DNA of 48,350 bases from Candidatus Caccomonas pullistercoris (GCA_018714085.1 DVNY01000147.1:1-48350), one strand, 5' to 3'; shown: positions 2,846 to 47,255, counted from the first letter of the stretch. Translations and numbers: made by a program. Notes: a model not told the origin generated them from the sequence alone.

Positions 2846-2928
2846 GGAAAACGGGAGTACCGACAGGATGAACGGGAGTACTGATAGGAAAAACTATGAC
2901 TGCGATCGTTTTTCTTGTCGCAGTCACA
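2846..2928. repeat. Array of degenerate 21-nt intergenic repeats (copy A)
   Basis: Four consecutive units of 20, 21, 21 and 21 nt share the pattern (C/T)GA(C/T)AGGA followed by an A-rich stretch. The first three read GACAGGA/GATAGGAAAAA; the fourth is inverted (TTTTTCTTGTCG), so GACTGCGA (2899-2906) pairs with TCGCAGTC (2917-2924). It lies in the gap between the ssrA terminator and the convergent GT2 gene. The same unit recurs at six other clear intergenic sites in this window. Confidence 0.75.
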
Positions 2929-2983
2929 GATATTCGTATTCTCCGGTTCTGGGCTGACGCAGAGGTGACGCCTGCTTCGTTTG

Positions 2984-3745
2984 TTACTTTTTAGGGCAAG
3001 TTACAAACTGAAAAAGTTTAGGTAGAAGCCTGTAAGCCGGATAAAGCAGGGGAGGGCGGAGTCCGTTTACGCGGAATGCTCGTTTGCATTGTCCGATGCC
3101 GCGGAGTATAGGTAGGATGTTTTTGCTCGTAGTGCCGCCGATGCGCATTTTCACCAGAACGGTGTCTATGAAATGTGTACGAATCCGGCAACATTCAAAG
3201 AACCTGAGCATCAACTCAAAGTCTGCTGAAAGCGGGAAGCGTAGGTCATAAAGACCATATTTCTCGTAGATGTCTTTTTTGACGTAAAAAGTGGGATGAG
3301 CAGGATGCCATCCGTGAAAGAAAGCACGAGGTGAAAATTCTTTGCTTTTCCAGAAACGGATGACTTTGTCTGTGTCTTCGCCATCTACGTAGTATAGGTT
3401 GCCGTAAACAGCGTCGAGGCTCTTGTCTTTCTTAAATTCGCGGGCAATGAGGGAAACCGCGTCTTCGCGGGCGAAGAAGTCGTCAGAATTGAGGATACCG
3501 ACGACCTCGCCTGTGGCCATCTGGATGCCTTTGTTCATGGCATCGTATATGCCTTTATCCGGCTCTGAGATATACTTGGTGATGTGGGGCTCGTAGCGAC
3601 TGATAATGTCCAAAGTCCCGTCAGTGCTGCATCCGTCGACAACGATATACTCGATGTCGGGGTAATCCTGGCTGATGATGCTTTCAATCGTGTCGGCTAG
3701 GGTATTTGCACTGTTGTATGTCACTGTAATTATGGAGACTTTCAT
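2984..3745 (-). CDS. Glycosyltransferase family 2
   Basis: A 253-residue cytoplasmic glycosyltransferase with a GT-A fold that would move a sugar from a nucleotide donor onto a growing glycan. The start is classic GT2: MKVSIITVTYNSANTLADTI, then EYIVVDGCSTDGT and the metal-binding region GILNSDDFFA. Its length fits the WcaA-like single-domain group. A gap of 29 nt follows the small lipoprotein gene upstream, and it may be the last gene of the Wzi/RNase Y run. A role in capsule, O-antigen or glycoprotein glycan synthesis is inferred from the nearby capsule operon; donor and acceptor are unknown. Confidence 0.9.
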   Translation of the reverse strand: MKVSIITVTYNSANTLADTIESIISQDYPDIEYIVVDGCSTDGTLDIISRYEPHITKYISEPDKGIYDAMNKGIQMATGEVVGILNSDDFFAREDAVSLIAREFKKDKSLDAVYGNLYYVDGEDTDKVIRFWKSKEFSPRAFFHGWHPAHPTFYVKKDIYEKYGLYDLRFPLSADFELMLRFFECCRIRTHFIDTVLVKMRIGGTTSKNILPILRGIGQCKRAFRVNGLRPPLLYPAYRLLPKLFQFVTCPKK

Positions 3746-3774
3746 TGAGCCGTTGTTTCGTCAAATGAAATGTG

Positions 3775-4233
3775 CTAAAATTTTCGGAACAAGATGCGGG
3801 CGAAATCAGATCGCAGGTGCATCTGGTTTGCATCGAGCTTTTCGATTTGGAATTGTGCCCGATTGCCCATGATGCCTGTCGGCTTGAGCTTGTCGAATGC
3901 AGGATCGGTGATGAGGCTGTCGTTGCCCCTGCGATTGACATATACGTCGGTGATGGCCAGCTGGTCGCCGGTGTAGGAGAACCGGCATAGCGTTTGCGAG
4001 GTCTCCCCATTGTCGATTCCTTGGATGTTGAGCAGGCCGAGTTGGATGCCCCAAAAGACATCTCTGTCCTTCATGGGGACAACGGAGTCATATATCCCGT
4101 TCCGAGCAAACTGAACTTCTGTGACTTGCCAAAATCCATCCAGCTTCCCATTTGCCGGAAGCTTGTCGCACGAAGCCCATATGCAGGAAATGCAGATGCT
4201 GGCGAGGCAGCAAAATATGTTGCGCTTCTTCAT
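3775..4233 (-). CDS. Small lipocalin-like lipoprotein
   Basis: A 152-residue predicted lipoprotein with a membrane segment followed by WASC|DKLPANGKLDGFWQVTEV. The GxW motif straight after the lipidated Cys, plus predicted beta strands through the rest, resembles lipocalin-like domain families common in Bacteroidales; the family call is by eye. I start it at the internal ATG at 4233 rather than the track start at 4245, because that gives an exact ATGA overlap with the stop of the Wzi-like gene. Its coupling to an outer-membrane capsule protein suggests an envelope role; the function is unknown. Confidence 0.75.
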   Translation of the reverse strand: MKKRNIFCCLASICISCIWASCDKLPANGKLDGFWQVTEVQFARNGIYDSVVPMKDRDVFWGIQLGLLNIQGIDNGETSQTLCRFSYTGDQLAITDVYVNRRGNDSLITDPAFDKLKPTGIMGNRAQFQIEKLDANQMHLRSDFARILFRKF

Positions 4234-5762
4234 TTTGTGAGCCATCCCGTTTTGCTGATTGTCAGTTGGAAACCTGTGTGGCTTCCTGTTTGTTTGCCCC
4301 GGTCAAGCCCGAATGCGGCTTTCGCCTGCCATCCCTGCGTGCGGAGCTTTCCTATGCGTTTGGGGCTGTATGCCACTTCGCACAGGAACGAGTTGCCGTA
4401 TTTGATCTCGTCGTATGGTGCGGTGTACGTGCCCCAGTTGCTGGTGTAAGTGTATAGAATGCGATAGTCTATTTCTTCGGTGGGTGAACCACTTACGCCG
4501 AAGTGGTGGCCGATGAAACGGTTGTTGTCGAACGAGAGCAGCCCATCATGTCGGTATAGCGGTGACATGTAAAGTGGATTGCCGATGGCTAGCCCCCAAT
4601 GTGTCCAACTGGTGTACAGACCATGGTTGTAGTAATTGTCTTTTGCGCTGATCTGGTCTGGTATCGCTTCGGTGTGGTCGTGATAGACTGCGCCACTTTG
4701 GTCTTTGGTTCCGATGCGTTCATACAGCAGTGTGCTGATGAAGCGGTTTTTAGGCAGTTGAAGTTCTATGCCAACAAGGCCGTCTTTCCAGCCGTACTGA
4801 AAGAAAAGTTGGGAGTGGTCCTCAAAAAAGTGGTCGTAGTAGACGCGCAGTTTGGCGCCCTTATATTTATAACTAAGGCTGAACAGCCAGCTGCCGACCG
4901 TGTTCCCCATGGCGTTGGCGTAGACGCCTTCACCCGGGTCGCTCCCACCGGAGTAAATGATTTCGATGAAATCTTTTATACCGTGCCCCATGGGAAGGCT
5001 CTCGCCCTTCCGGGGATAGTTGTGGATGATTCCGCCAAACTGATTGGCCATTTCAATCCCTCCTTCGAAGACGAGCGGGAATTTATCTTCATTGCCGAAA
5101 CGAAGAAATCCCGATTTGCTGTGGTAAAGGACGTGGTCGGCATATTGTTTGCCGGGTTCGGTATATCCTTTTTTCCAATTATTATCCGTGAAGAAGCCGT
5201 AGCCGAAATGGCCTTTAATACCAATCCAGTTTGATGTACCTGTCAGCGAAATGTATTCGGGAATTTCAATGCGGAATTCAGGGATAGGACGAGCGTTGGT
5301 ACCAAATGTTTGACTTCCACTGCTGAGAAGTGGATTTTTTAAGTTGGCAGGTCTTTCCTTGCTTCCGATGGAAAGGCGCACTTTTTTGTACTGTATGTCC
5401 GCGTAGAGCTGTTGCAAGACGAAACTGCTTGTGAAGTCGTATGTGGCAGCCAAGTCAACGCCATAGCCAAACTTCCAGTTATAAGCGGAGTCAGCCTCTG
5501 TGCTGCGGAACGCGCCCACGCGGATGTAGCCATTGTTCCCGGAAACGCTTGAGAGGCCATACTTGTTGGCGTTGAGCCAAAGTGGGGAGTCGTGGTCTGA
5601 GAACGTGGATTGGCCTTCAACTTTATAGGAAACGTTATGCCCTAACTGCTTGGCGCGTTCGTGCGCCTCGCTTTGCGCCTGGGCTTTTATTCCACAGGCG
5701 CAAAGCAGGCAGCACATCAGCAAAGCCGACGTGCGTGTCGGGCATATCGTTTTATTTTGCAT
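4230..5762 (-). CDS. Capsule assembly Wzi family outer-membrane protein
   Basis: A 510-residue outer-membrane beta-barrel protein. A signal peptide ends near residue 30 (GIKAQAQ|S). Alternating aromatic and polar strands run through the rest, with features such as [31 protein letters not shown] and [23 protein letters not shown]. coli Wzi is a capsule lectin that anchors group 1 K polysaccharide to the surface; Bacteroidales homologues are about this length. The gene overlaps the end of rny by 11 nt and the lipoprotein by 4 nt, so all three are probably one transcript. Capsule attachment as the local role is inferred. Confidence 0.82.
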
Positions 5763-7284
5763 AACTTACGGCGCGGGTTTCACGGATAACGGTGATTTTC
5801 ACTTGTCCCGGATACGTCATCTCGTCTTGTATCCGCTTGGCGATGTCATGGCTGAGACTTTCGGTCTGTTTGTCGTCAATTTTGTCTGCACCCACGATAA
5901 CGCGCAGCTCACGGCCGGCTTGGATGGCGTATGTCTTTGTCACGCCGGGATAGCTCATTGCTATGTTTTCCAAGTCGTTGAGCCGTTTGATGTAAGCCTC
6001 TACAATTTCGCGGCGGGCACCGGGACGGGCTCCGCTGATGGCGTCGCAGACTTGTACGATGGGGGCCAAAAGAGTTGTCATCTCCATCTCGTCATGATGG
6101 GCGCCGATGGCGTTGCATATGTCAGGCTTTTCTTTGAATTTTTCAGCCAACTTTGCGCCGTAGAGAGCGTGGGGCAGTTCGGGTTCTTCGTCGGGCACTT
6201 TTCCTATGTCGTGCAGAAGTCCGGCGCGTTTGGCCTTTTTGGGATTCAGACCTAACTCCGCGGCCATGACGGCGCACAAGTTGGCTGTCTCACGGGCGTG
6301 CTGCAAAAGGTTTTGGCCGTAGGATGAGCGGTATTTCATCTTTCCGACGATGCGGATCAGCTCAGGGTGCAGGCCGTGGATGCCTAAGTCAATGGCTGTG
6401 CGCTTACCAGTCTCGATGACCTCTTCTTCCACTTGTTTGCGGACTTTTGCAACGATTTCCTCGATACGGGCTGGGTGAATGCGTCCGTCGGCGATGAGCT
6501 GGTGAAGGGCGAGTCTGCAAATCTCGCGGCGTACAGGGTCGAAGGCTGAAATGACGATTGCCTCGGGCGTGTCGTCGACAATGATTTCCACGCCTGTGGC
6601 AGCTTCGAGAGCACGTATGTTACGGCCTTCGCGGCCAATAATGCGGCCTTTGACCTCATCATTGTCAATGTGGAACACGGTTACGCTGTTTTCGATTGCA
6701 GTTTCCGTGGCAACGCGTTGGATGCTCTGAATGACGATGCGTTTGGCTTCTTTATTGGCCGTCATTTTCGCGTCGTCCATGATTTCGTTGATATAGCTTT
6801 GTGCGTCGCTCTTTGCTTCATCTTTGAGCGAGTCGACCAAGCGCTTCTTTGCTTCTTCTGCTGAGAGGCCGCTGAGTTCCTCTAATTTCTCTCTTTCTTT
6901 CAATTGCAAGCGTTCGAGCTCTTCCTCACGGGCTGTGAGGGCTTGCTGCTGGTTATCAATGCGGTTTTGCGCCTTTTCGATTTCAACCTTGCGGCGACTT
7001 AACTCTTCCTGGCGCTGGTTCAGACCGATTTCGCGTTGTTTGAGTTTGTTCTCGGCCTGCGCAATTTTTTGGTTGCGAAGCTGAACTTCTTTTTCAAGTT
7101 CAGCCTTTTTGTTGAGGAACTTCTCTTTGACTTCCAGCAACTTCTTTTCTTTGATAACCTCGGCTTCTTCGTTGGCCTTGGCCGTCATTCTCTTGTATTT
7201 TCCAGTCAGTACGTAGCGGAAAAGGGCGTATCCCCCGATTCCTCCTATGACGAGACCGACTATAAGTGCTATAACAGTAAACAT
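5752..7284 (-). CDS. rny: Ribonuclease Y
   Basis: A membrane-anchored endoribonuclease that initiates mRNA decay in many bacteria without RNase E. The parts appear in the standard order: an N-terminal transmembrane helix (about residues 4-24), a long coiled coil (about 30-165), a KH RNA-binding domain ([15 protein letters not shown]), and an HD phosphohydrolase domain with the LLHDIGK catalytic motif and a later GAHHDEME. The length (510 residues) is normal. It lies 120 nt downstream of zapA, which is common in Bacteroidota. Its 3' end overlaps a Wzi-type capsule gene by 11 nt, an uncommon partner for an RNase. Confidence 0.97.
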
Positions 7285-7404
7285 GTTGATAATTTTGGGT
7301 TATGTGATTTGTGTAGTCCGGTTCTTGGTCTCTTTGTGGATTGGAATGGACACACATGGCGTCTTTTCCTTCCGTTCCGGCGGAAGCAGACGTCCTGACG
7401 CTGG

Positions 7405-7707
7405 TCATGAATACTCGTGTAGGGCGGTTTCTATTTCGCCCGTGAGTTGGTTCATGGCCTGACGATAAGGTTCGGTATCGTTCTTTTTTTCAAGAAGCAA
7501 CAACTGAGTGTATACGTCAATAAGGGCTAACGACATATTTTTCTCGACGCTGTGCTCCGGGTAGGCTGTGTGGAAATAGCCTATCTTTTCGTTAATCAGC
7601 CTTTCTGCTTTTCTGTACAGCTCTTCTTTTGCCCTCGGGATGTTGATGGCAAACCGCTGATTGGCTATCTTAACGGTGATGTCGAATCTTTGCTCGTCTG
7701 TGTCCAT
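7405..7707 (-). CDS. zapA: Cell division protein ZapA
   Basis: A 100-residue ZapA, which binds and bundles FtsZ at midcell. The N-terminal FtsZ-binding beta-hairpin region reads DITVKIANQRFAINIPRAKEE, followed by the long helix that forms the tetrameric coiled coil (AERLINEKIGYF through LLLLEKKND). It starts 12 nt after the upstream small coiled-coil gene, so the two form an operon. The 120-nt gap to rny has no clear terminator, only a short CTTCCG/CGGAAG hairpin (7369-7386), so rny may be co-transcribed. Confidence 0.9.
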   Translation of the reverse strand: MDTDEQRFDITVKIANQRFAINIPRAKEELYRKAERLINEKIGYFHTAYPEHSVEKNMSLALIDVYTQLLLLEKKNDTEPYRQAMNQLTGEIETALHEYS

Positions 7708-7719
7708 TCCGCGTCCGTG

Positions 7720-8013
7720 TTATACGCTCAACAGCGCGATGCACTTGTTTACCTCCCGGGTGAGGCGTGACAGCTTGGCTTTGGCTTCTTCAAGGTCGCC
7801 ATTGCTGATTTTCATCATGGCTGCCATTTTCAGGTTTGCGTAATGTTGGCGCAGTTCGTCGCATGTGGCTTGAAGTCGCTCGACTTGTGCCTCCTTTTCT
7901 CCAATCTGTGCTTGGAGATTGGCGTTTTCTTTCGCCAATTCCTGATAGTTCAGGATGAGTTGTCTTACCCTCGTGCTGAGTTTTTGGAGTGCGATGTCGT
8001 CTTCGGGTGTCAT
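7720..8013 (-). CDS. Small coiled-coil protein upstream of ZapA, possible ZapB-like partner
   Basis: A 97-residue cytoplasmic protein that is almost entirely heptad-patterned helix (LQKLSTRVRQLILNYQELAKENANLQAQIGEKEAQVERL). There is no signal or membrane segment. Size, composition and position resemble ZapB, the coiled-coil protein that binds ZapA in Enterobacteria, but I cannot show homology. It is the first gene after a good promoter and lies 12 nt before zapA. A divisome role is inferred from this coupling only. Confidence 0.75.
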   Translation of the reverse strand: MTPEDDIALQKLSTRVRQLILNYQELAKENANLQAQIGEKEAQVERLQATCDELRQHYANLKMAAMMKISNGDLEEAKAKLSRLTREVNKCIALLSV

Positions 8014-8032
8014 CGTGCGACAATGTTTTTCG

Positions 8033-8064
8033 CAAAGTTAGTATTTTTTTATACTCATGCCAAG
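8033..8064 (-). promoter_or_regulatory. Promoter of the coiled-coil/zapA operon
   Basis: On the minus strand CTTG (8061-8064), a 20-nt spacer and TAACTTTG (8033-8040) match the Bacteroidota promoter with one mismatch. The leader would be about 15-20 nt. Confidence 0.7.
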
Positions 8065-8072
8065 GCTTTGGC

Positions 8073-8711
8073 TTACTTTTCTTCGCTATCGGCAGGCTTG
8101 GGTTCTTTTTTCGCAAGCAGGACGATGTGATAAACATATTCTGTCATCCATTCCGCGCTATATCCTAAAGCATGTTGATAGTTACGGATGGCTATGCAGG
8201 TCTTCCTTACGCCTTCATCTTTCCAGGTATGTCTTGTCAGTACTTGGTTAATCGTCTTTTCGGTCATTGCGCGGAGGGCTTTTTTGAAAATGCCGGGGAC
8301 ACGGAACTTCCATTTCATCAAGTTGCCCATAAGCATCATGAGGTCTTGCGAGAAACCTTGGAATTGGATGAAGTACGTGCGTACGTCGTTGATGTTTCGG
8401 CAGTTGTGTTTGATGCTTGCGTCGATTTCCTTAAAGAATGTTTCGGGCAGTCCGTAAAGTTCGCCGAGCATTTTTTTGCAGCGGTTCTTCTCGCCGATGC
8501 CTAATTTGTTATTGACAGTCGGCACGTGAAGCGTTTGCTTGAATATGCGCAGGTCGGGCAGGGCGCTTAGGTTTGTGATGCCGAGGTTGGCAGCCATGAC
8601 GGCTTGGTAGTATACGCGTATCAGAGTCATGAAATCCTCCATGCCACCGACGCGCCAGCCGTTGTCTGCGGTATTTTGCTTTTTGCCCAAAAGCTTGCTA
8701 AGTATATTCAT
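8073..8711 (-). CDS. Conserved hypothetical protein
   Basis: A 212-residue protein of unknown function. It is predicted soluble and mainly helical, with basic segments (KNRCKKMLGELYG, RVPGIFKKALRAMTEKTIN) and no signal peptide or membrane helix. The C-terminus is charged (KKEPKPADSEEK). It has its own -7 box upstream and is followed by the zapA operon, which has a separate promoter. Base use is like the neighbours, and the ORF is long and unopposed by a better reading. I do not recognise a domain. Confidence 0.75.
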   Translation of the reverse strand: MNILSKLLGKKQNTADNGWRVGGMEDFMTLIRVYYQAVMAANLGITNLSALPDLRIFKQTLHVPTVNNKLGIGEKNRCKKMLGELYGLPETFFKEIDASIKHNCRNINDVRTYFIQFQGFSQDLMMLMGNLMKWKFRVPGIFKKALRAMTEKTINQVLTRHTWKDEGVRKTCIAIRNYQHALGYSAEWMTEYVYHIVLLAKKEPKPADSEEK

Positions 8712-8741
8712 CGTCTTGTGTGTAAAAACTTATTTGGCGTA

Positions 8742-8749
8742 CAAAGTTA
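8742..8749 (-). promoter_or_regulatory. -7 box of the 212-residue gene
   Basis: TAACTTTG on the minus strand lies about 30 nt before the ATG at 8711. I see no good TTTG at the usual -33 distance. Confidence 0.5.
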
Positions 8750-8764
8750 CTATTTTTTATGACA

Positions 8765-8891
8765 GGAATGGCCGTATGGCGACGCTTTTTGCCGTGACTA
8801 AGAAGATAAAGGCCGTTTGGGGCGATTGGGTATTCCTGTCACTGCGATAATAAAAAGCAACGCAGTGACAGAAAAACTCGTCACTGCGTCT
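8765..8891. repeat. Array of degenerate 21-nt intergenic repeats (copy F)
   Basis: Six units (five of 21 nt, one of 22) fill most of the gap between the 212-residue gene and the GT4 gene. Cores include TGACAGGAATGG, TATTCCTGTCACTGCG and CGCAGTGACAGAAAAAC. CTGTCACTGCG (8836-8846) and CGCAGTGACAG (8861-8871) form an 11-bp perfect inverted repeat. The array may continue, weakening, to about 8910. Confidence 0.75.
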
Positions 8892-8949
8892 GTGTCTTTC
8901 AGAAGCGTATTGCGGGAAGAGGGTGTACGCCGCGTCTCTTGCCGGCAGG

Positions 8950-10032
8950 TTATAGTTCGATGAATCGCGCGTATAGTTCTTCGATTTGAGCGAACGTGCG
9001 TGCCCAGGTGAAGCGTTTGGCGTTTTTCATACCGTCCTGAATGATGCTGTTTCTTGTCGGCGCATCGCGCAGTAAGGACAGGCAACGATGGATTTCTTCG
9101 ATTGAGGGTTCTTTGAGTAATAACGTCTTGTTGCCAATGATTTCCGGGATTGATGAGGAATTCGATGCAATCACAGGGCATCCTGCCTTTTGTGCTTCGA
9201 GCACTGGAATGCCAAACCCTTCGTATGAGGATGGGTAAAGCAGGCAGTAGGCGGAATTATATAGCTCGTTAAGTCGTTTGTTGGATACACGTCCGAGTTG
9301 GGTGAATTGTCCGGCTAACTGTTCGTTCAGCATGTTTGTTTCCTCTGGCGTAAGGGGATTGCCGACAATGACCAGTTTCAGCCCTGTGCCACGGAGTGCA
9401 TGTACGGCCAGCCCGAAGTTTTTGTAGCTGACGCGGCTACCGACGAATAAGACATAGGGGCTGTCCGTGTATGGCAGTGTCTCGGGGGACGGAGAAGACA
9501 AGCGGTTGTATTCTTTGGATACTCCGTTGTAGATGACGGTGACATTGTCCGGATTGATCTCGGGCATAAAGTGAAGCAGGTCTCTCTTTGTATGCTCGGA
9601 GACGCAGACGATGTGTGTGGCGTGCCGTATGGCGTTGTATTTCTGGTGGCTGTGCAGTCGGCGGACTATGCCGTGCATGAAATGTTCATACGTGAAATCG
9701 TGTACCGTTGTGATATTGATTGCTTTACGGTTAGTGCATGTCCGGTAGTACGATGAGTGGAATATGAATTCCTCCTTGCACGAGACGTCAGGGTTGATAT
9801 AACGTTGCAGCGGCATGAACACATGGTTCCGGTGAATAATTTGCCTTTCAGGCAGGTTCAGGTGTTTCCTGAAAAGGTTGCCTTCTGCGTGGCTGTATTC
9901 GAGAAAGCGTAGCCTCTCGTGCCATGCTGTGGACATAAAATGTTTGAGGAGTTCATACCATACTATTGAAATGCCTCCTGTCTTTTGTAGTGAGAATATG
10001 ATGTTGTCCAGGTATATGTTTCCCTGAGTCAT
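8950..10032 (-). CDS. Glycosyltransferase family 4 (GT-B fold)
   Basis: A 360-residue glycosyltransferase with a Rossmann-like N-terminal half (NIYLDNIIFSLQKTGGISIVWYELLKHF) and a GT1/GT4-type C-terminal half. The latter has SPYVLFVGSRVSYKNFGLAVHAL, then YEGFGIPVLEAQKAGCPVIASNSSSIPEI, whose Glu-x7-Glu pattern holds the donor sugar nucleotide. I start it at ATG 10032, not at the track start (10116), because the -7 box at 10083-10090 lies between them. It is a single-gene unit. The role is likely cell-surface glycan synthesis; the substrate is unknown. Confidence 0.88.
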   Translation of the reverse strand: MTQGNIYLDNIIFSLQKTGGISIVWYELLKHFMSTAWHERLRFLEYSHAEGNLFRKHLNLPERQIIHRNHVFMPLQRYINPDVSCKEEFIFHSSYYRTCTNRKAINITTVHDFTYEHFMHGIVRRLHSHQKYNAIRHATHIVCVSEHTKRDLLHFMPEINPDNVTVIYNGVSKEYNRLSSPSPETLPYTDSPYVLFVGSRVSYKNFGLAVHALRGTGLKLVIVGNPLTPEETNMLNEQLAGQFTQLGRVSNKRLNELYNSAYCLLYPSSYEGFGIPVLEAQKAGCPVIASNSSSIPEIIGNKTLLLKEPSIEEIHRCLSLLRDAPTRNSIIQDGMKNAKRFTWARTFAQIEELYARFIEL

Positions 10033-10082
10033 GTCTGTTGTCGTGATGGTGTTCCTTTTTCGTGTGTGAAAGTTCCTGCGAG

Positions 10083-10090
10083 CAAAGATA
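10083..10090 (-). promoter_or_regulatory. -7 box of the GT4 gene
   Basis: TATCTTTG on the minus strand, about 50 nt before ATG 10032. It fixes the start choice for this gene. The -33 box is unclear. Confidence 0.6.
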
Positions 10091-10281
10091 ATAAAAAAGC
10101 CTGCGACTATCCTCATCCTGCCTCACTTTCGTGTCGAAAAGTTCGTTTTTCCCCGAGCGGAGTGCCGGTTTCCGGATGGTGCTTATATATAATTAATGTG
10201 TAGTCCTGTTTTTCGCTCTTCCGGATACGGGTTGTCGGATTAAAATCGCAACGTTTTTTATGACTTGTAACAGAAATGCAG

Positions 10282-10289
10282 TATCTTTG
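10282..10289 (+). promoter_or_regulatory. -7 box of the phosphate transporter gene
   Basis: TATCTTTG on the plus strand, 27 nt before the ATG at 10317. Upstream is AT-rich, with no exact TTTG at 19-21 nt. The 10091-10281 gap otherwise holds nothing I can name. Confidence 0.6.
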
Positions 10290-10316
10290 CAACAAAATTG
10301 TTAAAGGGAATCTATT

Positions 10317-15541: not shown

Positions 15542-15549
15542 CAAAGATA
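15542..15549 (-). promoter_or_regulatory. -7 box of rmlA, at the edge of the 85-bp repeat
   Basis: TATCTTTG on the minus strand lies 27 nt before the rmlA ATG. Seven of its eight bases are the first bases of the 85-bp direct repeat, so the duplicated element abuts or supplies the promoter. The second copy carries TATCTTTC instead. Confidence 0.65.
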
Positions 15550-15712
15550 GTGCAAACGAGTGGAACGCACGCGGAAAAGCCGGAGGATTTTCCGCAGCGC
15601 ACTCCCGAGTGCCGCCTTATCTTATGGAAAGATAGTGCAAACGAGTGGAACGCACGCGGAAAAGCCGGAGGCTTTTCCGCAGCGCACTCCCGAGTGCCGC
15701 CTTATATGATGA
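15543..15712. repeat. Two tandem copies of an 85-bp element with internal hairpins
   Basis: Copies at 15543-15627 and 15628-15712 are nearly identical: one inner substitution and a few differences at the tail. Each begins AAAGATAGTGCAAACGAGTG. Each holds a stem, GCGGAAAAGCC with GGCTTTTCCGC (15656-15680 in copy 2, perfect; one mismatch at 15571-15595 in copy 1), followed by a GCACTC/GAGTGC hairpin. A third degenerate beginning (AAAGGCGGTGC) follows at 15713. ORFs across it are not convincing. Confidence 0.9.
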
Positions 15713-15753
15713 AAAGGCGGTGCGCTCGACCGAAACTCCTGGATGCCTTGATC

Positions 15754-15837
15754 GGATTACCCGGACGGCTGACAGAAAATCCCAGACGGCTGACAGAAAA
15801 ATCTGTCAGTGCGATAGGTTTTCCTGTCGTACTGACC
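15754..15837. repeat. Array of degenerate 21-nt intergenic repeats (copy B)
   Basis: Four exact 21-nt units in the divergent rmlA-nadE gap. The first two share GACGGCTGACAGAAAA across their junctions, the third combines both orientations (GACAGAAAAATCTGTC), and the fourth is inverted (GGTTTTCCTGTCG). It lies directly after the 85-bp element. Confidence 0.85.
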
Positions 15838-15881
15838 GTTCAAACAAGCCCCCTTTTATGTGATGCCTCATGACCGGGAGG

Positions 15882-22922: not shown

Positions 22923-23006
22923 AGTGGCACGTGTCGGCTGACAGAAAAACCGGGATGGCTGACAGGAATTTCTGTCAGAGCGACAGTCTTTTCTGTCACT
23001 GCGACA
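22923..23006. repeat. Array of degenerate 21-nt intergenic repeats (copy C)
   Basis: Four exact 21-nt units, ending CGGCTGACA, TGGCTGACA, AGCGACA and TGCGACA. The first units read CTGACAGAAAAACC, the last two are inverted (TTTCTGTCAG, TTTTCTGTCAC). The array lies between the convergent DUF4270 and porin genes. Confidence 0.85.
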
Positions 23007-23404
23007 GAAGTACCGTGCTGAAGACCTTGTCTGTTTTTGCGTCGACAGGCGGACTTTCCGGCTGTCGGACGCAAATTTCCTACGCTGCAAGCTCGGTTTT
23101 GTATAGGGAAGTTATTTTTCTTTCTTCAATTTGTCGTCAGGGACTTCCGCCTAATAGTCAGCTGCGCCCTGCGATTGGGCAAGCAAGAGGCCATACGTGT
23201 GGCCTTACGACTGTGCACGACTTTATGAATGAGCCGTGTATGTTTTTATGTACATCGAAGATTGGCCGGACTGACTGGTCCGGCGTGTAGGGGATTGCTC
23301 CTATTGTCCCATGGACCGGTCGCCGAAGTGGCGGGGCTGGTTTAGGCCAAGCGGGGCTTTCTGTAAGGCTTCGGTCTTTGCGGGGTGTGCTGCGTTGCCG
23401 GCCG
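23007..23404. other. Gene-free stretch with several short hairpins
   Basis: No convincing ORF. Visible hairpins are AGGCCA/TGGCCT (about 23188-23205), GCCGGAC/GTCCGGC (23265-23284, perfect 7 bp) and TCGCC/GGCGG near 23320. The second could be a weak terminator for the porin gene, but no T run follows. A small RNA is possible; I recognise none. Confidence 0.3.
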
Positions 23405-30608: not shown

Positions 30609-30650
30609 GCGCGTTTAGTCAGTGCGACAGGAATTTTTTCTGTATCCTTT
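30609..30650. repeat. Degenerate copy of the 21-nt intergenic repeat (copy H)
   Basis: About two units: AGTCAGTGCGACAGGAATTT then TTCTGT. The core CAGTGCGACAGGAA fits the family, but no array is kept. It lies in the divergent gap before the Crp/Fnr gene. Confidence 0.4.
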
Positions 30651-33538: not shown

Positions 33539-33622
33539 AAATCTCAGTCGCCGACCCGTAAATCCTAATCGCCGATCCGTAAATCTTAGTCGCCGACCTG
33601 TTGAAATTGCCAGCCGTCACTG
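33539..33622. repeat. Array of 21-nt intergenic repeats, diverged subtype (copy G)
   Basis: Three close units (AAATC..AGTCGCCGACC.GT form; cores CAGTCGCCGACCCGT, TAATCGCCGATCCGT, TAGTCGCCGACCTGT) and a fourth weaker one, all 21 nt. Read on the minus strand they give GTCGGCGACTGAGATTT, close to the CGGCTGACAGAAAA core elsewhere. Here all the close units point the same way. Confidence 0.85.
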
Positions 33623-38290: not shown

Positions 38291-38436
38291 CTTTTTGTCT
38301 GTCGTTTGCGGTCTTGACAGCGAAGTGTCGGATTTTTCCTGTCGCCCTGACCGTGATTTCTGTCGCCCTGACGGAAAAAACTGTCAGCCGTCCCGGTTTT
38401 CCTGTCTGCCGTCCCGTGTTTTCAGTCACCTTGCCT
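38291..38436. repeat. Array of degenerate 21-nt intergenic repeats (copy D, the longest)
   Basis: Seven units (six of 21 nt, one of 20). Cores include TTTTTCCTGTCGCCCTGACC, ATTTCTGTCGCCCTGACG, ACTGTCAGCCGTCCC and GTTTTCCTGTCTGCCGTCCC. Most point in the inverted sense, with GACGGAAAAAACTGTCAG as a mixed unit. It lies between the relA-like gene and the sulfatase. The stretch 38060-38290 before it holds no recognisable gene. Confidence 0.85.
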
Positions 38437-38467
38437 GTGTTTGCGCGGAGGAGGCGGGTAAGTGCAT

Positions 38468-38516
38468 AAAAAGAGCGCCCCGCCGGCCGTTTGGTTGCAC
38501 GGTGGCGGGACGCTTT
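38468..38516 (-). terminator. Terminator of the sulfatase operon
   Basis: On the minus strand GCGTCCCGCC and GGCGGGGCGC form a stem with one mismatch, followed by TCTTTTTATG. It begins about 27 nt past the sulfatase stop. Confidence 0.82.
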
Positions 38517-38539
38517 GAGGGTTTAGGCGAACAGCCTGT

Positions 38540-40072: not shown

Positions 40073-40092
40073 GGTTCTGTGATTTCTGAGGG

Positions 40093-42018
40093 TTAGCGGA
40101 TTTGGATTTTGGCGGTTGAACTTTGGCTGTCAGTCGTGACATTGACGAGATATGTGCCTGTGGCGGCGCTTTTCAGCGAGACGTGGCTATCTGTTGTCTG
40201 GGTCACGAGGGCGCCTTTGGCGTCGAACACTTTCACCGATTTGATAGGGGCGTTGGCCGTTACTTCGATCTCGCGGTTGTCGTAGCTGACTTGTATGTCG
40301 ATGCCGTCGTTCTGTGTGGCTTCGCCGATGCCGAGAGGCACGACGCGCGAGCTGGGTCTGAAATATGCCGTGAGGTCAACGTTGTGCTCGACGGTGAAGG
40401 TGTACTCGTCGTCCGTCGATACTACGTTGTTGCCATCGCGCCAGCAGACGAACCTGTTCATCGTGGCAATCGGGGTGGCCGTGACGGTGACGCTTGTGCC
40501 CGGTTCGTATGTCTCACTTTCAGGCGAGATGCTGACCGTGCCGCGGAACTCAGACGAGGTCTTGGCTGTAACGGTGTAGGCTTCCGGAGCTTCGACCGTG
40601 TAGACTACGAAGTCCTGAACTTGTCCGTGTGTGTCATCCTCAGCGCCGGTCAGTCCGTTGTCCGTCAGACGGATACGCATACGGGTGCTGCTGGCTGTTG
40701 CGTCGGTAGGCACGCTGACGTTGGCGGTGTATGCGTTTCCATCCTGAGTGAAGGGGATGGCAACTTCAAAGACACCGTCGCCGTTCCAGTCGAAGTAGGC
40801 GAACATTTCGTAGCCTTCGGGGTTGACGGGGTAGTAGGTCGTGCGCAGTGTGAACGACTTCCCACGTGCCAGCACAGCTCTGTCTTTGGTGAAGATGCTG
40901 AACACTGTCGACGGCTTAGTCACGGTGTGGAGGATGGTTCTTCCGTTGGTCGAGAGCGTGCCGATCGGGAAAGTGATAGGTCTTACGACGCCTTCGCCCT
41001 CCATAGAGAGCTCACGCAGATAGGTGTTGCTGATCGTGCCGCAGGGCAGGTTGTATACTTTGAGTGCCAGTTGGTATTTGCTGCGGCGCTGGCTGAATGT
41101 GAAGAGAGAGTCTCCGTCAACGGTCAACGCGTTGCCGAGTGCACCATGGTTTTCATAGGGACGGAATACGTAGTAAACGCTGCCGTCGACAGTCTGTTCG
41201 TAGACGCACCAGTGGGTTCCGCCGAGGCTGTCGGCCGCGAGGGTGTTGCCTTCGCCTATGGGGCGTTTCGTGTCGGTTGAGACGATGAGGTAGCCGTTCT
41301 CGGCATTCGATGTGCCGACGAAATACCACGACTGGTCGCTGCCGTTGTCAACAGGCTGGGCGCTGATGGCGCTGCCGTCTGCCGGATCCGTGAGTGCGTT
41401 GCCTTTCGAGTTTACGATGTCGTACTCCATGGCCACATTGTTGAAGAGGGCAGAACTGTTGAATGGGTGAACCTCGTAGAGGTATTCGCTTTCAACAATG
41501 TTCCAGTAGGAGTTGCCGCGGCCAGATCCGCACATGTAGGCCACAACGGTTGTTCCGCCTCCTCCGCGGTTGAGGCCGATGGTCTCATCGCTGACTTGGT
41601 CGAATACGTCGTTGTCTGTGGAACTCATGTACCAGTAGCCTTGGGTCGTGGCGCCCTCGGTGTTGTCTTGCCCGACGTAGAACTCAACAGCCTCCGAACC
41701 AGTGCTGACACGGACATTTTGTGCGACGTTAGACGACTGGATGTAGTTGCCCGTAGTCATATTGCGGATATAGTAGCGATTGGGTTCACCCGTCGGGACG
41801 AACTCCCAATAGCAGCGTGTGGCGGGATCGACCGATCCGATGCTCAATAAGCCGTCCGATTCTTCCTGAATGCAAGTTCCGGCGGCTTGACAAGGTTGCA
41901 GGGTGTAACACTGGCCGGCTTCGGGGAAAGCGGCGTCAGATGTGTCTTGACCCAGACAGATCTGTGGGATGGCGAGGCTAAGGCTTAGCAGAGCGCCAAA
42001 TTTACTGATGTGTGTCAT
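40093..42018 (-). CDS. Large secreted protein with GEVED and repeat domains and a type IX-like sorting domain
   Basis: A 641-residue surface or secreted protein. After the signal peptide (PQICLGQ|DTSD) come two beta-trefoil-like stretches (CYWEFVPTGEPNRYYIRNMTTGNYIQ; SWYFVGTSNAENGYLIVSTDTKRPIG). A GEVED-type domain follows (MFAYFDWNGDGVFEVAIPF through MRIRLTDNG...DTHGQVQDFVVYT), then a Listeria-Bacteroides-type repeat (GTVSISPESETYEPGTSVTVTATP...FVCWRDGNNVV...AYF). The end (KSVKVFDAKGALVTQ...GTYLVNVTTDSQSSTAKIQI) resembles a type A sorting domain of type IX secretion. It lies 20 nt before the sulfatase, suggesting shared glycan handling, which is inference. Confidence 0.83.
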   Translation of the reverse strand: MTHISKFGALLSLSLAIPQICLGQDTSDAAFPEAGQCYTLQPCQAAGTCIQEESDGLLSIGSVDPATRCYWEFVPTGEPNRYYIRNMTTGNYIQSSNVAQNVRVSTGSEAVEFYVGQDNTEGATTQGYWYMSSTDNDVFDQVSDETIGLNRGGGGTTVVAYMCGSGRGNSYWNIVESEYLYEVHPFNSSALFNNVAMEYDIVNSKGNALTDPADGSAISAQPVDNGSDQSWYFVGTSNAENGYLIVSTDTKRPIGEGNTLAADSLGGTHWCVYEQTVDGSVYYVFRPYENHGALGNALTVDGDSLFTFSQRRSKYQLALKVYNLPCGTISNTYLRELSMEGEGVVRPITFPIGTLSTNGRTILHTVTKPSTVFSIFTKDRAVLARGKSFTLRTTYYPVNPEGYEMFAYFDWNGDGVFEVAIPFTQDGNAYTANVSVPTDATASSTRMRIRLTDNGLTGAEDDTHGQVQDFVVYTVEAPEAYTVTAKTSSEFRGTVSISPESETYEPGTSVTVTATPIATMNRFVCWRDGNNVVSTDDEYTFTVEHNVDLTAYFRPSSRVVPLGIGEATQNDGIDIQVSYDNREIEVTANAPIKSVKVFDAKGALVTQTTDSHVSLKSAATGTYLVNVTTDSQSSTAKIQIR

Positions 42019-42036
42019 AGGTATGTGTTTAGGTTA

Positions 42037-42531
42037 TTATGGTTTTGCAACGACTGTAAATCGTTTGTTTACTTTGATTTTGTAGATGAACAGCGACGCT
42101 GAGCATGAATAGGAGAAGCTGCCGTCCTGCGACGTGTTGGAGTAGGTGGCTCCATCCGACTGGCCAGAGATATTATAGCTGGCGTCAAGCGTGAGCGTAT
42201 ATGTTCCCGGCGTTTGAATGGTCAGCGTATCGGTCGGATTTTCTGAGGCGTATGGATAAATGACGAGGTCTTTGTAATTATGATTTGCTTCGACCGTCGA
42301 GCCGTTCTGGGATAGGCTCCATGCATACGTAGTCCGGTCGACAAGTGTCGCTTGGCGTGATTGCACGGCCGTAGCTACGAATGGTTCACCCGCATAGATT
42401 GTCTCTTTGTTAAACGTGACGTCCGAGAATATCGGCGGGTGCGACTGATATTGTTCTTCGTCATCGCACGATGTCAGTGACATGCCGGTTGCCATGACGC
42501 CGAGGAGTAAAAGTGACTTACTGATATGCAT
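42037..42531 (-). CDS. Small lipoprotein of unknown function
   Basis: A 164-residue predicted lipoprotein: signal peptide and lipobox MATGMSLTSC|DDEEQY, then one beta-sandwich-like domain with IYAGEPFVATAVQSR and TIQTPGTYTLTLDASYNI, recalling PKD-like or Ig-like folds. The acidic DDEE directly after the lipidated Cys matches the surface-export signal described for Bacteroidota lipoproteins, so it is probably surface-exposed. It lies 18 nt before the large secreted protein and 12 nt after the CorC-like gene. The function is unknown. Confidence 0.8.
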   Translation of the reverse strand: MHISKSLLLLGVMATGMSLTSCDDEEQYQSHPPIFSDVTFNKETIYAGEPFVATAVQSRQATLVDRTTYAWSLSQNGSTVEANHNYKDLVIYPYASENPTDTLTIQTPGTYTLTLDASYNISGQSDGATYSNTSQDGSFSYSCSASLFIYKIKVNKRFTVVAKP

Positions 42532-42543
42532 GATTGTGAGTAT

Positions 42544-43842
42544 TTAAGTTGTTGCAGATTCTTTGGGGATGGTGACAAGCAGTTTGTCTACACGTTCTCC
42601 GTCCATGTCTATCACTTCAAAGTGGATGTGCCGATAGTCGAACGTGTCGCCGGGTTTGGGGATACGCCCGATGAAGAACATTGCCATGCCTCCCAGTGTG
42701 GTGAATCCTTCATCTTCGATGTCCTCGTAGTTGAGTACGTGAACTTCGTCCATGAAGTCGTCGAGGTTCATTGAGGCGTCGACAAGCAGGGAGCCGTCGT
42801 TACGGTGAACGACCTCGTGTTCTTCCGCTTCGTTCTCTTCGAGGATGTCGCCGAAGATGCTTTCCGTCAGATCGTGTAGGGTGATGATGCCTTCTGTGCC
42901 TCCGTACTCATTAACGATGATGGCGAACTTTGTTTTGTTGTTTTTGAAAAGTTCGACAACTCGCTTGGCGTCGAGTGTTTCCGGTATGAACAGTGCCGGG
43001 CGCGCTATGCGCTTCAAGTCGAATGGTTCGTTGCTGTTTAGCAGCAGAATCATGTCTTTCACTGAAACGACGCCGACTACTTCGTCTTTATCGTCGTCAA
43101 TCAGGGGGTATTTGCTGAAATTGTTTTCTTGGATGGTAAGCAGGACTTTTTCCTTGTCATCGTTTGTGTCAAGGGCAACGACATCTGGGCGCGGTGTCAT
43201 GAGCTCGTTGACGCGTTTGTCTGAAAAACGGAACACGTCGCGCAGCATTTCTGTCTCGTGTTTGTCAATGACGCCTTGTTCGGAACTTTGGTGTAAGATT
43301 ACTTTCAGCTCTTCCTGCGTAATGGGGCGGTCGTCGCTTCCTGAGACTCCCAGCGCGTGATTGACGAGGCGCGTGGTGATACTTAGTATCCACACGACGG
43401 GATAGGCGATCCACATCAGCACCCGCATGATCGGCGACATGCCCACGGCCCAGCGCTCCGGCCGGCTTAGGGCTATCGATTTCGGGACAAGTTCACCAAT
43501 AATGAGCGACAGGAACGTGATGATGACAATGGTGAGCGCCATCGCTAACCGTTCGGCGTGAGGAGCCAAAGCCGGGAACGCTTGTATCAGGGGGACGAAA
43601 TCGTCGGCGACCGAAGTTCCGCCGTATGCACCCGATATGATGCCTACGAGGGTGATGCCGATCTGGATTGTCGAGAGGGTTTTTTCTGGATTTTTCTGTT
43701 GATCGAGCAGTTTTTGCGCAGACTTGCTGCCTCCGCTCGCCATGGATTCAAGGCGAACCTTGCTTGCGGAAACGAAGGCCATTTCGTAGAGCGCAAATAG
43801 ACCGTTAATAATAAGTAATAAAAGGATTACTAAAAATTCCAT
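42544..43842 (-). CDS. CorC/HlyC-type membrane protein (DUF21 and CBS domains)
   Basis: A 432-residue inner-membrane protein related to the CNNM/CorB magnesium and cobalt transporters, often annotated as haemolysin. There are four hydrophobic segments in the DUF21 domain (residues 1-190, including IGITLVGIISGAYGGTSVAD and IITFLSLIIGELVPKSIAL), then two CBS domains (VNELMTPRPDVVALDTND; IARPALFIPETLDAKRVVELF) and a C-terminal CorC-HlyC domain (FTTLGGMAMFFIGRIPKPGDTF). It is spaced 21 nt from tsaC. Ion specificity is unproven. Confidence 0.92.
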   Translation of the reverse strand: MEFLVILLLLIINGLFALYEMAFVSASKVRLESMASGGSKSAQKLLDQQKNPEKTLSTIQIGITLVGIISGAYGGTSVADDFVPLIQAFPALAPHAERLAMALTIVIITFLSLIIGELVPKSIALSRPERWAVGMSPIMRVLMWIAYPVVWILSITTRLVNHALGVSGSDDRPITQEELKVILHQSSEQGVIDKHETEMLRDVFRFSDKRVNELMTPRPDVVALDTNDDKEKVLLTIQENNFSKYPLIDDDKDEVVGVVSVKDMILLLNSNEPFDLKRIARPALFIPETLDAKRVVELFKNNKTKFAIIVNEYGGTEGIITLHDLTESIFGDILEENEAEEHEVVHRNDGSLLVDASMNLDDFMDEVHVLNYEDIEDEGFTTLGGMAMFFIGRIPKPGDTFDYRHIHFEVIDMDGERVDKLLVTIPKESATT

Positions 43843-43863
43843 GTATTAAGTTGAAGTTATTAT

Positions 43864-44481
43864 TTAGCTGTACAGTTCGCCTTTTCCTTGGCGCAGAATG
43901 ACGGGTTCGTCGCCGGTGCAGTCGACAACTGTCGAAACTTCGAGCGTTCCTATCCCACCGTCGACAACGAGGTCAACTTGTTTCCCGAATGCTTCGTTGA
44001 TGAGTTCGGGGTCTGTGGCATATTCTGGTTCCATGTTGTCTGTCACGGGCAACGTCGTGGTCATGATGGGTGCGTCAAGCAGGCGAGCTATTTCGCGCAG
44101 GACCGGATGGTCTGGCATACGGATGCCGACTTCCTGTCCTTGGCGGTTGCGGAAAATTTTGGGCAGTTTGCTTAGGCCGGGCAGGACGAATGTGAACGGT
44201 CCGGGCAAGTTGCGCTTCATCAGTTTGAACACAGGTGTTGAGATACGGGCATACTCGCTGATGGAGCTGAGGTCGTAGCAAATGATGGAGAGGTGGCTTT
44301 TCGTCGGGTCTATGTTTTTTAATTTACATATGCGTTCAACGGCCCGTTCTTTGAGGGCGTGGCAACCGATGGCGTACATCGTGTCCGTCGGGTAGATGAC
44401 GATTCCTCCGTCGGCCAGGATGTCAACGATGCGTTGCAGGTCGCGCGGGTCGTTGTTCTTGTTATAAAGTTTCAGCAGCAT
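43864..44481 (-). CDS. tsaC: Threonylcarbamoyl-AMP synthase (TsaC/YrdC/Sua5 type)
   Basis: A 205-residue enzyme that makes threonylcarbamoyl-AMP for the t6A37 modification of tRNAs reading ANN codons. Key regions are GGIVIYPTDTMYAIGCHALKERAVERICKLKN (nucleotide site with the conserved K-x-R-like pattern) and KRNLPGPFTFVLPG, followed by VGIRMPDHPVLREIA. It has the short TsaC length, without a Sua5 C-terminal domain. It begins 5 nt after maf, so the two are co-transcribed. Confidence 0.94.
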   Translation of the reverse strand: MLLKLYNKNNDPRDLQRIVDILADGGIVIYPTDTMYAIGCHALKERAVERICKLKNIDPTKSHLSIICYDLSSISEYARISTPVFKLMKRNLPGPFTFVLPGLSKLPKIFRNRQGQEVGIRMPDHPVLREIARLLDAPIMTTTLPVTDNMEPEYATDPELINEAFGKQVDLVVDGGIGTLEVSTVVDCTGDEPVILRQGKGELYS

Positions 44482-44486
44482 GGCTG

Positions 44487-45068
44487 TCAGAATTTTTTCA
44501 GTACATTATAAAGACGTTGTACGGGTAGCCCCATCACGTTGAAGTAGCTGCCGCGCAGCTCTTCGACTGCGACCATGCCAATCCACTCTTGAATGCCGTA
44601 GGCGCCGGCTTTGTCAAAAGGCAGGTAGTTATCGACGTAATAGTCGACTTCCTCGTCCGTGAGGTCGGCAAATTTGACTTGGCTCGTCACGGCAAAGTTC
44701 TCCATCCGGTCTTTTGTCATCACGGTGACCCCTGTGATGACTTGGTGGAACCGGCCGGACAGCTTGTGCAGCATGTCCTTGGCTTCTTGCGCGTCGTGCG
44801 GTTTTCCCAGCGTCCGGCCATCGAGGCATACCACAGTGTCGGCGGCAATGAGCAACTCGTCGTCAGCCATTGACGAACGGTAGGCTTCTGCCTTTTTCCG
44901 GGAAATGAAGCGTGGGATGTCTTCTCCGCGCAGGGTGTCGGGGTATTGCTCGTCAATGCCGAAGAGGGTGCGGACCTTGAATGTAAGTCCTAAGTTTTGC
45001 AGCAACTCTTTGCGGCGTGGCGAAGCGCTTACCAATACTATCTTGTATTTCTTTAAGTTGTCAAACAT
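44487..45068 (-). CDS. maf: Maf family nucleoside triphosphate pyrophosphatase
   Basis: A 193-residue house-cleaning enzyme that hydrolyses non-canonical or excess NTPs such as dTTP, UTP or modified bases. Motifs are IVLVSASPRRKELLQNLGL, ISRKKAEAYR, LIAADTVVCLDGRTLGKPHD and YVDNYLPFDKAGAYGIQEW. The set DTVVC..G..LGKP with KAGAYGIQ is that of the YhdE-like (dTTP/UTP) branch. A gap of 65 nt, without visible signals, separates it from the KdsC-like gene upstream. Confidence 0.95.
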   Translation of the reverse strand: MFDNLKKYKIVLVSASPRRKELLQNLGLTFKVRTLFGIDEQYPDTLRGEDIPRFISRKKAEAYRSSMADDELLIAADTVVCLDGRTLGKPHDAQEAKDMLHKLSGRFHQVITGVTVMTKDRMENFAVTSQVKFADLTDEEVDYYVDNYLPFDKAGAYGIQEWIGMVAVEELRGSYFNVMGLPVQRLYNVLKKF

Positions 45069-45133
45069 TTTTGTTCATGAGTTTGTTAAAGGTGTCAGGC
45101 CTGCCTTGCAGGGCTTGGGGCTTTTCTCTTGCC

Positions 45134-45652
45134 TCACCAGCCGAATGCGTGGGCGTCGGACATCCATTGTCCTTGTGCACGGAGCACTTGCTCGACCACG
45201 TCGCGCACGCAACCGCAGCCCCCCTTGTATTGGCTGACGTAGCGGGCGAGCGACTTGATTTCGGGCGCGGCATCAGCAGGGGCACAGGGGCAGCCCACGC
45301 GGCGCATGACTTCGTAGTCGGGGATGTCGTCGCCCATGTAGAGCACTTCTTCGTCGTGGAGGCCGTAGTCCGTGATCCAATCGTCGTAGGTCTCGATTTT
45401 GACGGCGCAGCCGAGAAAAACGTCCTTGATGCCCAGCCCCTCGTAGCGATGACGGACGGCTTCGGTGCGGCCTCCTGTGATGATGGCCAGATGTAGCCCG
45501 CGTTTCACGGCCAGTTGCAGGGCATATCCGTCCTTGATGTTGGCTGTGCGTTGCGGCTCACCGCCGGGATGCAGGGTGATGGTGCTGGCGCTCAGCACCC
45601 CGTCCACATCGAATGCCATGGCTTTTATTTGTGTGAGGTCGTAGTCAATCAT
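45134..45652 (-). CDS. kdsC: KdsC-like HAD phosphatase (KDO 8-phosphate phosphatase)
   Basis: A 172-residue HAD-superfamily enzyme of the C0 (capless) type, which in known members removes phosphate from KDO 8-phosphate for lipopolysaccharide core synthesis. Motif 1 is [13 protein letters not shown], motif 2 is [12 protein letters not shown] with [15 protein letters not shown], and motif 4 is [16 protein letters not shown]. It overlaps the DUF2520 gene by 8 nt. No other KDO genes are near, so the substrate is inferred from the family. Confidence 0.88.
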
Positions 45653-46424
45653 TTTCTTGGGCGTATTGATAAATGTGCTGGCTCAGCAGTTCATAGATCC
45701 GTCGCAGTTCGGGATTGTCGGCCAGCATTCGTTCGTGGCGGTCGATGACGTTCCGGTCGAAACGGACGGCCGGACCCGTCTGTGCCTTGCATGCTGGGAG
45801 TTCATGGACCTTGGCTGCGGTTTCGTCGATGAGCGGAAGCAACGAGTCGGAGGGAATGCCTTCTTTTTCGAGCAAACGTGCCGCGATGTCGTAGCAGTGG
45901 TTTGAAAAATTGCAGGCGAACACTGCGGCCAAGTGCAGCCAGCGCCGGCGTTCGGATGGCAGGACATAGACTCGGTCGCTCACCGAGCGGGCCAGCTGTG
46001 TCACCTTGTCGAGCGTTTCCGGAGCATTGGCTTCGATGAAACAGGGGATGGCGTGGAAGTCCACCTGTCGCGTCTTGCTGAAAGTCTGCATGGGATAGAG
46101 CACACCGTAGTTTTCCACTTTCCCTTCGAAGATGTCCATCGGCACACTGCCAGCGGTGTGCAGGCAGAAGCTGTCGGGATGCAGCGCGCCCCACCGGGCG
46201 GCAAGGCTGGGCAGGGCGTCGTCTTTTACAGCAAAGAGGCAACAGTCCGCCTCAGGGAGGGCTTCGAGATGGTCGGTGGCGTCACAGTGCAGGGTTCCGG
46301 CTAAGGCTTGTGCGGCTGCCAGTGTGCGACTGAACACTCCGTTGATCCGGTAGCCGGCCTTGGCCAGTGCGTGGCCGATGTGGGTCGCTACGTTGCCCGA
46401 TCCGATGAGGCTGATAGTCTCCAT
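45645..46424 (-). CDS. Rossmann-fold DUF2520 protein
   Basis: A 259-residue NAD(P)-binding protein related to pyrroline-5-carboxylate and 6-phosphogluconate dehydrogenases. The N-terminal Rossmann motif is [30 protein letters not shown], and the C-terminal helical DUF2520 domain includes [23 protein letters not shown]. Length and layout are normal for the family. It lies 1 nt after the nitroreductase and overlaps the KdsC-like gene, which I recall as a recurrent neighbour in Bacteroidales. The substrate is not known. Confidence 0.88.
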
Positions 46425-46425
46425 G

Positions 46426-46974
46426 TTATTGCGCGTCGTTAGCAGGGCTGTACTCGTTCAGGTGGATTTTCTCCCAAAGGAGCTTTTCGTCGTTCTGCGG
46501 TTTGCGTTCCATGCCTTTATGGCCTACGGCGACGATGGCCACAGGTTCCAAGACTTCGGGCAGGTTGAGCAGTTCTCTGACGATTTTTGCCGATGGTGTC
46601 CCGTCGTCCTGTGAGCGGCCGCGCACCTGCACCCAGCAGGCACCCAGCCCCATGTCTTCGGCTTGGAGGAGGAGCATGGTGGCGGCCACCGAGGCATCCT
46701 CAACCCACATGTCGCTGACCGTCCTGTCCGCGACGACCACGATGGCTAACGGGGCTTCGGCCACCATGGCGGCACCGCTTGGCTTGCACTCTGAAAGCTG
46801 GTGGAGCAGGTCTGCGTTGTCCACAAGGACGAACTCCCAAGCCCGCAGTCCTTTTGACGAAGGTGCGAACAGGGCTGCTTTCATCAGTTCGACGACTTGG
46901 TCTTCGCTGAGTTTTTCAGGCGTGAATTTACGTATGCTTCGGCGTTTTCGCGCCAAGTCTGTAAAGTTTTGCAT
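46426..46974 (-). CDS. Nitroreductase family protein
   Basis: A 182-residue FMN-dependent oxidoreductase, distinct from the one at 18437. Motifs are ARKRRSIRKFTPEKLSEDQVVELM, APSSKGLRAWEFVLVDN and GLGACWVQVRGRSQDDGTPS. The ATG at 46974 is chosen over the track start at 47001, since the -7 box TAAGTTTG lies at 46999-47006. It opens the long head-to-tail run that reaches the sulfatase. The substrate is unknown. Confidence 0.9.
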   Translation of the reverse strand: MQNFTDLARKRRSIRKFTPEKLSEDQVVELMKAALFAPSSKGLRAWEFVLVDNADLLHQLSECKPSGAAMVAEAPLAIVVVADRTVSDMWVEDASVAATMLLLQAEDMGLGACWVQVRGRSQDDGTPSAKIVRELLNLPEVLEPVAIVAVGHKGMERKPQNDEKLLWEKIHLNEYSPANDAQ

Positions 46975-46998
46975 CTGTCTTTGTCTGCAATGTCGCAG

Positions 46999-47029
46999 CA
47001 AACTTACGAATTAAATGTGACACGGACAA
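46999..47029 (-). promoter_or_regulatory. Promoter of the nitroreductase-led operon
   Basis: TAAGTTTG (46999-47006) on the minus strand, with TTG (47027-47029) 20 nt further upstream. The leader would be about 18-20 nt. Confidence 0.65.
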
Positions 47030-47171
47030 TTTCGGCGCCATGAAAAGCGATGCAAATGTCAAGTTGGGATGTCCGGGCACATTGTGGAGCCTCCCGTGCA
47101 GGACGTTTCGACGGGGCGGCCAGGCGGTCGGGCGAGTCAGGAAGCAGCAGCGGAGCAGGCGGCGTCTGACA

Positions 47172-47255
47172 GCAGAAACGGAGGCCGTGACAGGAAAAAC
47201 AGTCACTGCTTCCGTCCGTTCTGTCACTGCGACCGTTTTCCCTGTCAGCCGTCAC
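47172..47255. repeat. Array of degenerate 21-nt intergenic repeats (copy E)
   Basis: Four exact 21-nt units in a divergent gap. The first junction reads CCGTGACAGGAAAAACAGTC; then come the inverted TTCTGTCACTGCGACC and GTTTTCCCTGTCAGCCGTCAC. An earlier partial unit ends CGTCTGACA at 47171. Confidence 0.85.

Follow-up and report, generated by a model that had tools for sequence, protein, structure and literature searches.

The window (the whole 48,350-nt stretch of DNA analysed) comes from Candidatus Caccomonas pullistercoris, a member of the Bacteroidota whose genome (G000; 2.15 Mb in 181 contigs, 86.5% complete) encodes T9SS tail and BamH_bt-like proteins. Seven arrays of short tandem units and one degenerate remnant are located in the window, all of them between genes. 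An array of about four units (2842..2925) occupies the convergent gap between the tmRNA gene (+ strand, ending at 2661) and a glycosyltransferase gene (- strand, ending at 2984), and contains a 21-nt repeat called by TRF (2850-2889) together with the grid tokens described below. A tandem gap holds about 2.5 units whose halves are inverted, CTGTCACTGCG..CGCAGTGACAG (8834..8890), and the divergent gap upstream of NAD synthase holds about four, two forward and then inverted (15756..15838; TRF 15760-15800, period 21). Half-sites alternate every 11/10 nt in the array of a further convergent gap (22931..23007). The remnant, as read from the sequence, is one dyad, TCAGTGCGACAGGAATTTTTTCTGT, in a divergent gap (30614..30648); the orthologous gap of the nearest relative compared, G016, has no clear array. 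A different word, CTAATCGCCGATCCG plus TAAATC, makes up the array of a tandem gap at 33540..33601 (TRF 33548-33598, period 21, 86%), and the tandem gap between relA/spoT and a sulfatase gene carries about five units (38328..38432), also called by TRF. The last array, of about 4.5 units, lies in a divergent gap (47161..47256), and the orthologous G016 gap has an array of other words in the same place. In an Rfam search of the window at the gathering score the tmRNA was the sole match, and no known structured RNA coincided with the arrays.

The preliminary description of this DNA had reported seven arrays and a remnant, with a period of 21 in tandem, divergent and convergent gaps, all of which was borne out, the remnant lying near 30614; two arrays that it had placed at 8765 and 38291 exist, and their actual positions are about 8834-8890 and 38328-38432. 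It had also given every site one shared core, CTGACAGGAAAA, and this did not hold: the exact core has 25 matches in the G000 genome and zero in the window's contig, and the site listed at 33539 uses the other word, CTAATCGCCGATCCG, though on the same 21-nt grid. Two unrelated repeats were seen beside arrays. A tandem element at 15543-15716 (85 nt x 2, 95% alike) adjoins the 15756 array, and DNA related to it flanks arrays at L010:4500, L019:9576 and L026:4304. Array flanks in L211, L018, L221 and L015 contain the other, a dispersed hairpin of the GTAGGGGCGA..TCGCCC type that is shared by several gaps and has no relation to the 21-nt arrays.

In G000 the unit joins a 15-bp dyad word, CTGTC-N5-GACAG or a variant of it, to a 6-bp A/T spacer, and recurs at a 21-bp step on both strands. 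Read as a grid, the order is G-half, 6-bp A/T box, C-half and 5-bp middle, which then repeats. G-halves are GACAG, GATAG, TCCCG, ACTTG, TTTAG, TTCCG and GACCG, C-halves are CTGTC, CTATC, CGGGA, CAAGT, CTAAA and CGGTC, and the middles include AGCCG, ACTGC and GCAGT. The A/T box reads GRAWTTYC, with the end G in 93% and the end C in 92%. Single arrays mix unit orientations, with 11 nt from GACAG to CTGTC and 10 nt from CTGTC to GACAG, so that the lattice is about 10.5 bp and one kind of half-site gives way to the other at each helical turn. Array ends are enriched in GACCG half-sites (odds ratio 3.3, Fisher p 2e-5, with counts that are partly non-independent).

The phase of this grid is stricter than first read. 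Spacing was measured in 517 kb of sampled G000 DNA, part of it chosen for matches and 171 kb of it unbiased, using a 10-nt core model that is blind to the neighbouring unit; 125 of 126 same-strand core pairs 14-28 nt apart are separated by exactly 21 nt. Same-strand matches fall at 21/42/63 and opposite-strand matches at 11/32/53 and 10/31/52, with almost none off phase. Over the whole genome there are 176 TGACAG-N5..34-TGACAG pairs vs 6 for the control, and about 93 among the 100 pairs listed are spaced exactly 21. Neighbouring units differ from each other at 7.5 of their 21 bases, so the 125 in-phase pairs set hundreds of substitutions against a handful of off-phase events. The proposal that spacing is kept while the bases drift is thus strongly supported, both in G000 (125 vs 1 pairs) and by a lag-21 peak across the genus.

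The phenomenon is also much wider than the window. The tandem pair GGCTGACAG-N12-GGCTGACAG has 89 matches in the G000 genome vs 0 for the reversed control and no more than one in 60 related genomes, and the arrays of the window are far beyond chance. When public genomes were scanned with the same pair, none of the matches listed was array-like and no locus among them had three PWM hits; those inspected were coding or other repeats. Array density is 0.164 per kb in the G000 stretches taken without choice by matches (171 kb), or about 350 per genome by extrapolation. Genes were called with a simple hexamer-based ORF caller, and among gaps of at least 80 nt an array is present in about 35% of tandem (39/110), about 35% of divergent (14/40) and 48% of convergent gaps (15/31), with biased and unbiased samples pooled. 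Restriction to the space between genes, true of the window, does not extend to the genome sample, where 10 of 88 arrays are inside called ORFs; the ones that were translated read as array-derived stretches, several of them as 7-aa repeats. In the Rho gene (L014:1162-3150) an array is translated within the long linker (TEKTVAVTENPIAVTENPVAVTE).

Other species of the genus have an intergenic lag-21 peak built mostly of unrelated units, and only G016 has a related vocabulary. Pooling the genus minus G000 gave 85 events at lag 21, 8 at lag 20 and 17 at lag 22, where 22-nt families are present, and at least eight species with different words have the 21-nt peak. In 76 kb of intergenic DNA sampled from other genera of the order there were 3 lag-21 events, and a 21-nt peak sought in 17 other genera was found in none. 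The words are private: CAAACNATNGTTTG has 201 copies in G080 and 0-2 in other genomes of the genus, CTRTCGTAGTACTTG has 209 in G016, 0 in G000 and at most 2 elsewhere, and TTACAAANTTTGTAA has 209 in G036 and 0-1 elsewhere. The G036 word was first read at one 5-kb locus, from which its genome-wide presence was predicted, and the prediction held; its listed copies recur at 42,21 or 21,42 spacing, which would be expected if whole arrays were copied. With a 22-nt step, TATCATNNNNRTGATA has 42 copies in G020, 28 in the sister genome G008 and 0-6 elsewhere. Two genomes depart from the common period, and 21 bp is therefore not universal in the genus: G004 uses multiples of 9 nt (9/18/27) in dispersed intergenic arrays of GAAGTTAAC (L160, L171), and G081 has periods of 10.5, 13 and 16, with intergenic 13-nt (GGTAGCGTTTTGT) or 16-nt arrays (L172-L174). 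Heptamer-like intergenic arrays (TTAGACG; AATTGTC) occur at L181:18-289 and L158:13888-17817 with a 7 x 3 = 21 nt periodicity. HU-family proteins (PF00216) have a median of 5 per genome in the genus vs 2.5 in 24 other genera, a weak lead.

The arrays behave as dispersing elements. The sole clear empty site is a GT11 (fucosyltransferase-like) gene of G000 (L019:16627-17601), in which the array adds about 36 aa cleanly and in frame; 10 homologues lack this insertion, and they are too diverged at the DNA level for a target site duplication to be read. Over 85-133 bp, one array of G008 matches arrays at several different G020 loci with 84-96% identity. Recent spread, as had been suggested, is upheld by the private words at about 200 copies, the near-identical arrays at different G008 and G020 loci and the in-frame insertion in the glycosyltransferase gene. 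At orthologous gaps of G008 and G020 the array stays in place. The clearest case, L156/L155, has no internal indel and keeps its spacers, and the unit centres change together from GCGC to TAGG/TATA/TATG/TAAG; parallel substitution and whole-array replacement cannot be told apart by comparing the two sequences. Gain or replacement is seen between G000 and G016 (proteins about 82% identical), where two sampled gaps carry arrays of differing words in both genomes and the relA-sulfatase gap carries one in G000 only. A segment of L232 (G008) and L237 (G020) is about 91% identical overall and near-identical around its array, a closer match than for most segments that the two species share (often 80-87%), and recent transfer of this segment is possible.

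DNA curvature was predicted with a wedge (dinucleotide) model using provisional parameters. For six species with different words the model bends the 21-nt arrays by 55-83 degrees per 84 bp, and for G008 and G015 by 48 and 43 degrees, respectively (four arrays for G015), vs 31-41 degrees for same-period column permutations, a control that also disrupts A/T runs. Dephasing cuts the predicted bend from 61 to 20 degrees, and the bend is maximal at a period of 21-22. No curvature is predicted for the 22-nt families of G008, G020 and G080. Because the parameters are provisional and the bend is partly inherent to any 21-bp repeat, which sums its bends in phase, curvature supports an architecture and does not prove it.

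With about even confidence, we read the arrays as a dispersing non-coding element with a REP/BIME-like mode of life, whose 21-bp phase would be kept through a docking lattice on one face of the DNA. The element consists of about 3-6 units (15-bp dyad word plus 6-bp A/T box) on a 21-bp lattice of two helical turns; whole arrays spread into gaps and occasionally in frame into genes, and each species amplifies its own word, so that words are replaced over time and the phase is not. Comparison of the arrays points to spacing, not sequence, as what is kept in the spreading element. Words and A/T boxes would share one face of DNA that is predicted to be curved, which may be why the phase is kept, and the lattice could serve to dock a dimeric DNA-binding or DNA-bending protein, either a nucleoid protein or a factor that copies the element. 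Both the helix phase and the curvature predicted by the model would fit the binding of a protein to one face, the partner itself being conjectural. A wider reading, which we consider rather doubtful, is that chromosomes throughout the genus are organised by a fast-evolving DNA-binding protein that changes in concert with its hundreds of helix-phased sites; every species would then have a recognition word of its own, and most would retain a two-turn lattice with a curved A/T box. In at least eight species of the genus, the part that is kept (the two-turn lattice) can be told from the part that is free (the word), which offers a natural experiment on the persistence of bacterial dispersed repeats. 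A word can be predicted from one locus and then checked across the genome, and the phase is open to deliberate disruption, so that direct tests could tell apart selfish spread, DNA architecture and termination.

The strictness of the phase has a rival account in neutral minisatellites, in which tandem duplication, unequal exchange and gene conversion spread the units and make them uniform, and the period of 21 is an accident of history passed on in register. Words are indeed concerted within species, arrays are copied whole and G004 and G081 have other periods, and array-level copying alone would keep the phase within a species without selection; but the 21-nt peak recurs in at least eight species with different words, indels are almost absent against hundreds of substitution differences, and dispersal to unrelated loci and into a gene is not local duplication, which makes this account rather unlikely. 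The dyads could alternatively belong to bidirectional intrinsic terminators, the inverted units forming hairpins that are followed by T-runs. Most arrays, not all, fold as RNA well below shuffles (median best-strand z -4.2; -7.0 in convergent gaps), perfect hairpins with T-runs occur (e.g. L026:9453-9506), the median distance of an array is 108 nt from a 3' end and 197 nt from a 5' end, and convergent gaps are slightly more often filled (15/31). Divergent gaps, however, from which terminators would be expected to be excluded, are filled as often as tandem gaps (14/40 vs 39/110), the direct-only arrays at L020:3305 and L014:9788 have no such hairpin, and a hairpin does not need an exact 21-bp step. 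Selection at the RNA level, sought through G.U asymmetry in the arrays, found no support, as the transcript strand has no excess of G.U pairs (83 vs 110). Terminators are thus an unlikely explanation.

No description of this array family came up in a literature search. In the DNA uptake sequence dialects of Neisseria and Pasteurellaceae, short words peculiar to a lineage recur in great numbers, at times as inverted pairs close to the ends of genes, and the arrays here also have lineage-private words in very many copies. An uptake word, however, stands alone or in a pair, is frequent in coding DNA and does not follow a 21-bp lattice. Iteron and centromere arrays such as parC/ParR are helix-phased tandem protein sites at one or few loci per replicon, in contrast to the hundreds of arrays spread here through a chromosome. 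BrickBuilt elements of Porphyromonas gingivalis, also Bacteroidota, have a 23-nt unit, 19 copies, and a leader and tail with 12-nt terminal inverted repeats (PMC4596501). They resemble the arrays in being intergenic, hairpin-forming and made of tandem units of similar length (21-23 nt), and a MITE with an internal minisatellite would be an explanation of this kind. The arrays differ in their 21-nt unit, in numbering hundreds and in occurring in both orientations, and an all-against-all comparison of 166 flanks revealed no common leader, tail or terminal inverted repeats, only 21 weak pairs due mostly to two unrelated repeat families. The unit is accordingly distinct from BrickBuilt, as first thought, membership fails because there are no common ends, and a MITE origin is highly improbable.

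The likeness to REP, BIME and REPIN elements is closer: short palindromic units in alternating orientation, regular spacing, hundreds of copies, a mostly extragenic location and species-specific families, much as reported for those elements, which exceed 100 copies (PMC2817692; PMC3733652). BIMEs are reported to bind gyrase and IHF (PMC2817692), and in REPs the palindrome has at one of its ends a GTAG or CGTC tag that is left unpaired (PMC3733652). The arrays differ in their 15+6 unit, exact 21-bp lattice and A/T box framed by G and C; by inspection no GTAG/CGTC end tag is present in the tokenised G000 units, and a search for PF01797 (Y1_Tnp) gave no match in the array-bearing genomes G000 (86.5% complete), G016, G073 and G032. 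It is therefore very unlikely that the arrays are genuine REP/BIME elements whose mobility depends on a RAYT (Y1 tyrosine transposase), and membership is not claimed. With no RAYT visible in these four genomes, unlike REPs, a new dispersal route may exist, and by analogy it is the REP/BIME mode of life that fits the arrays best among the systems compared.
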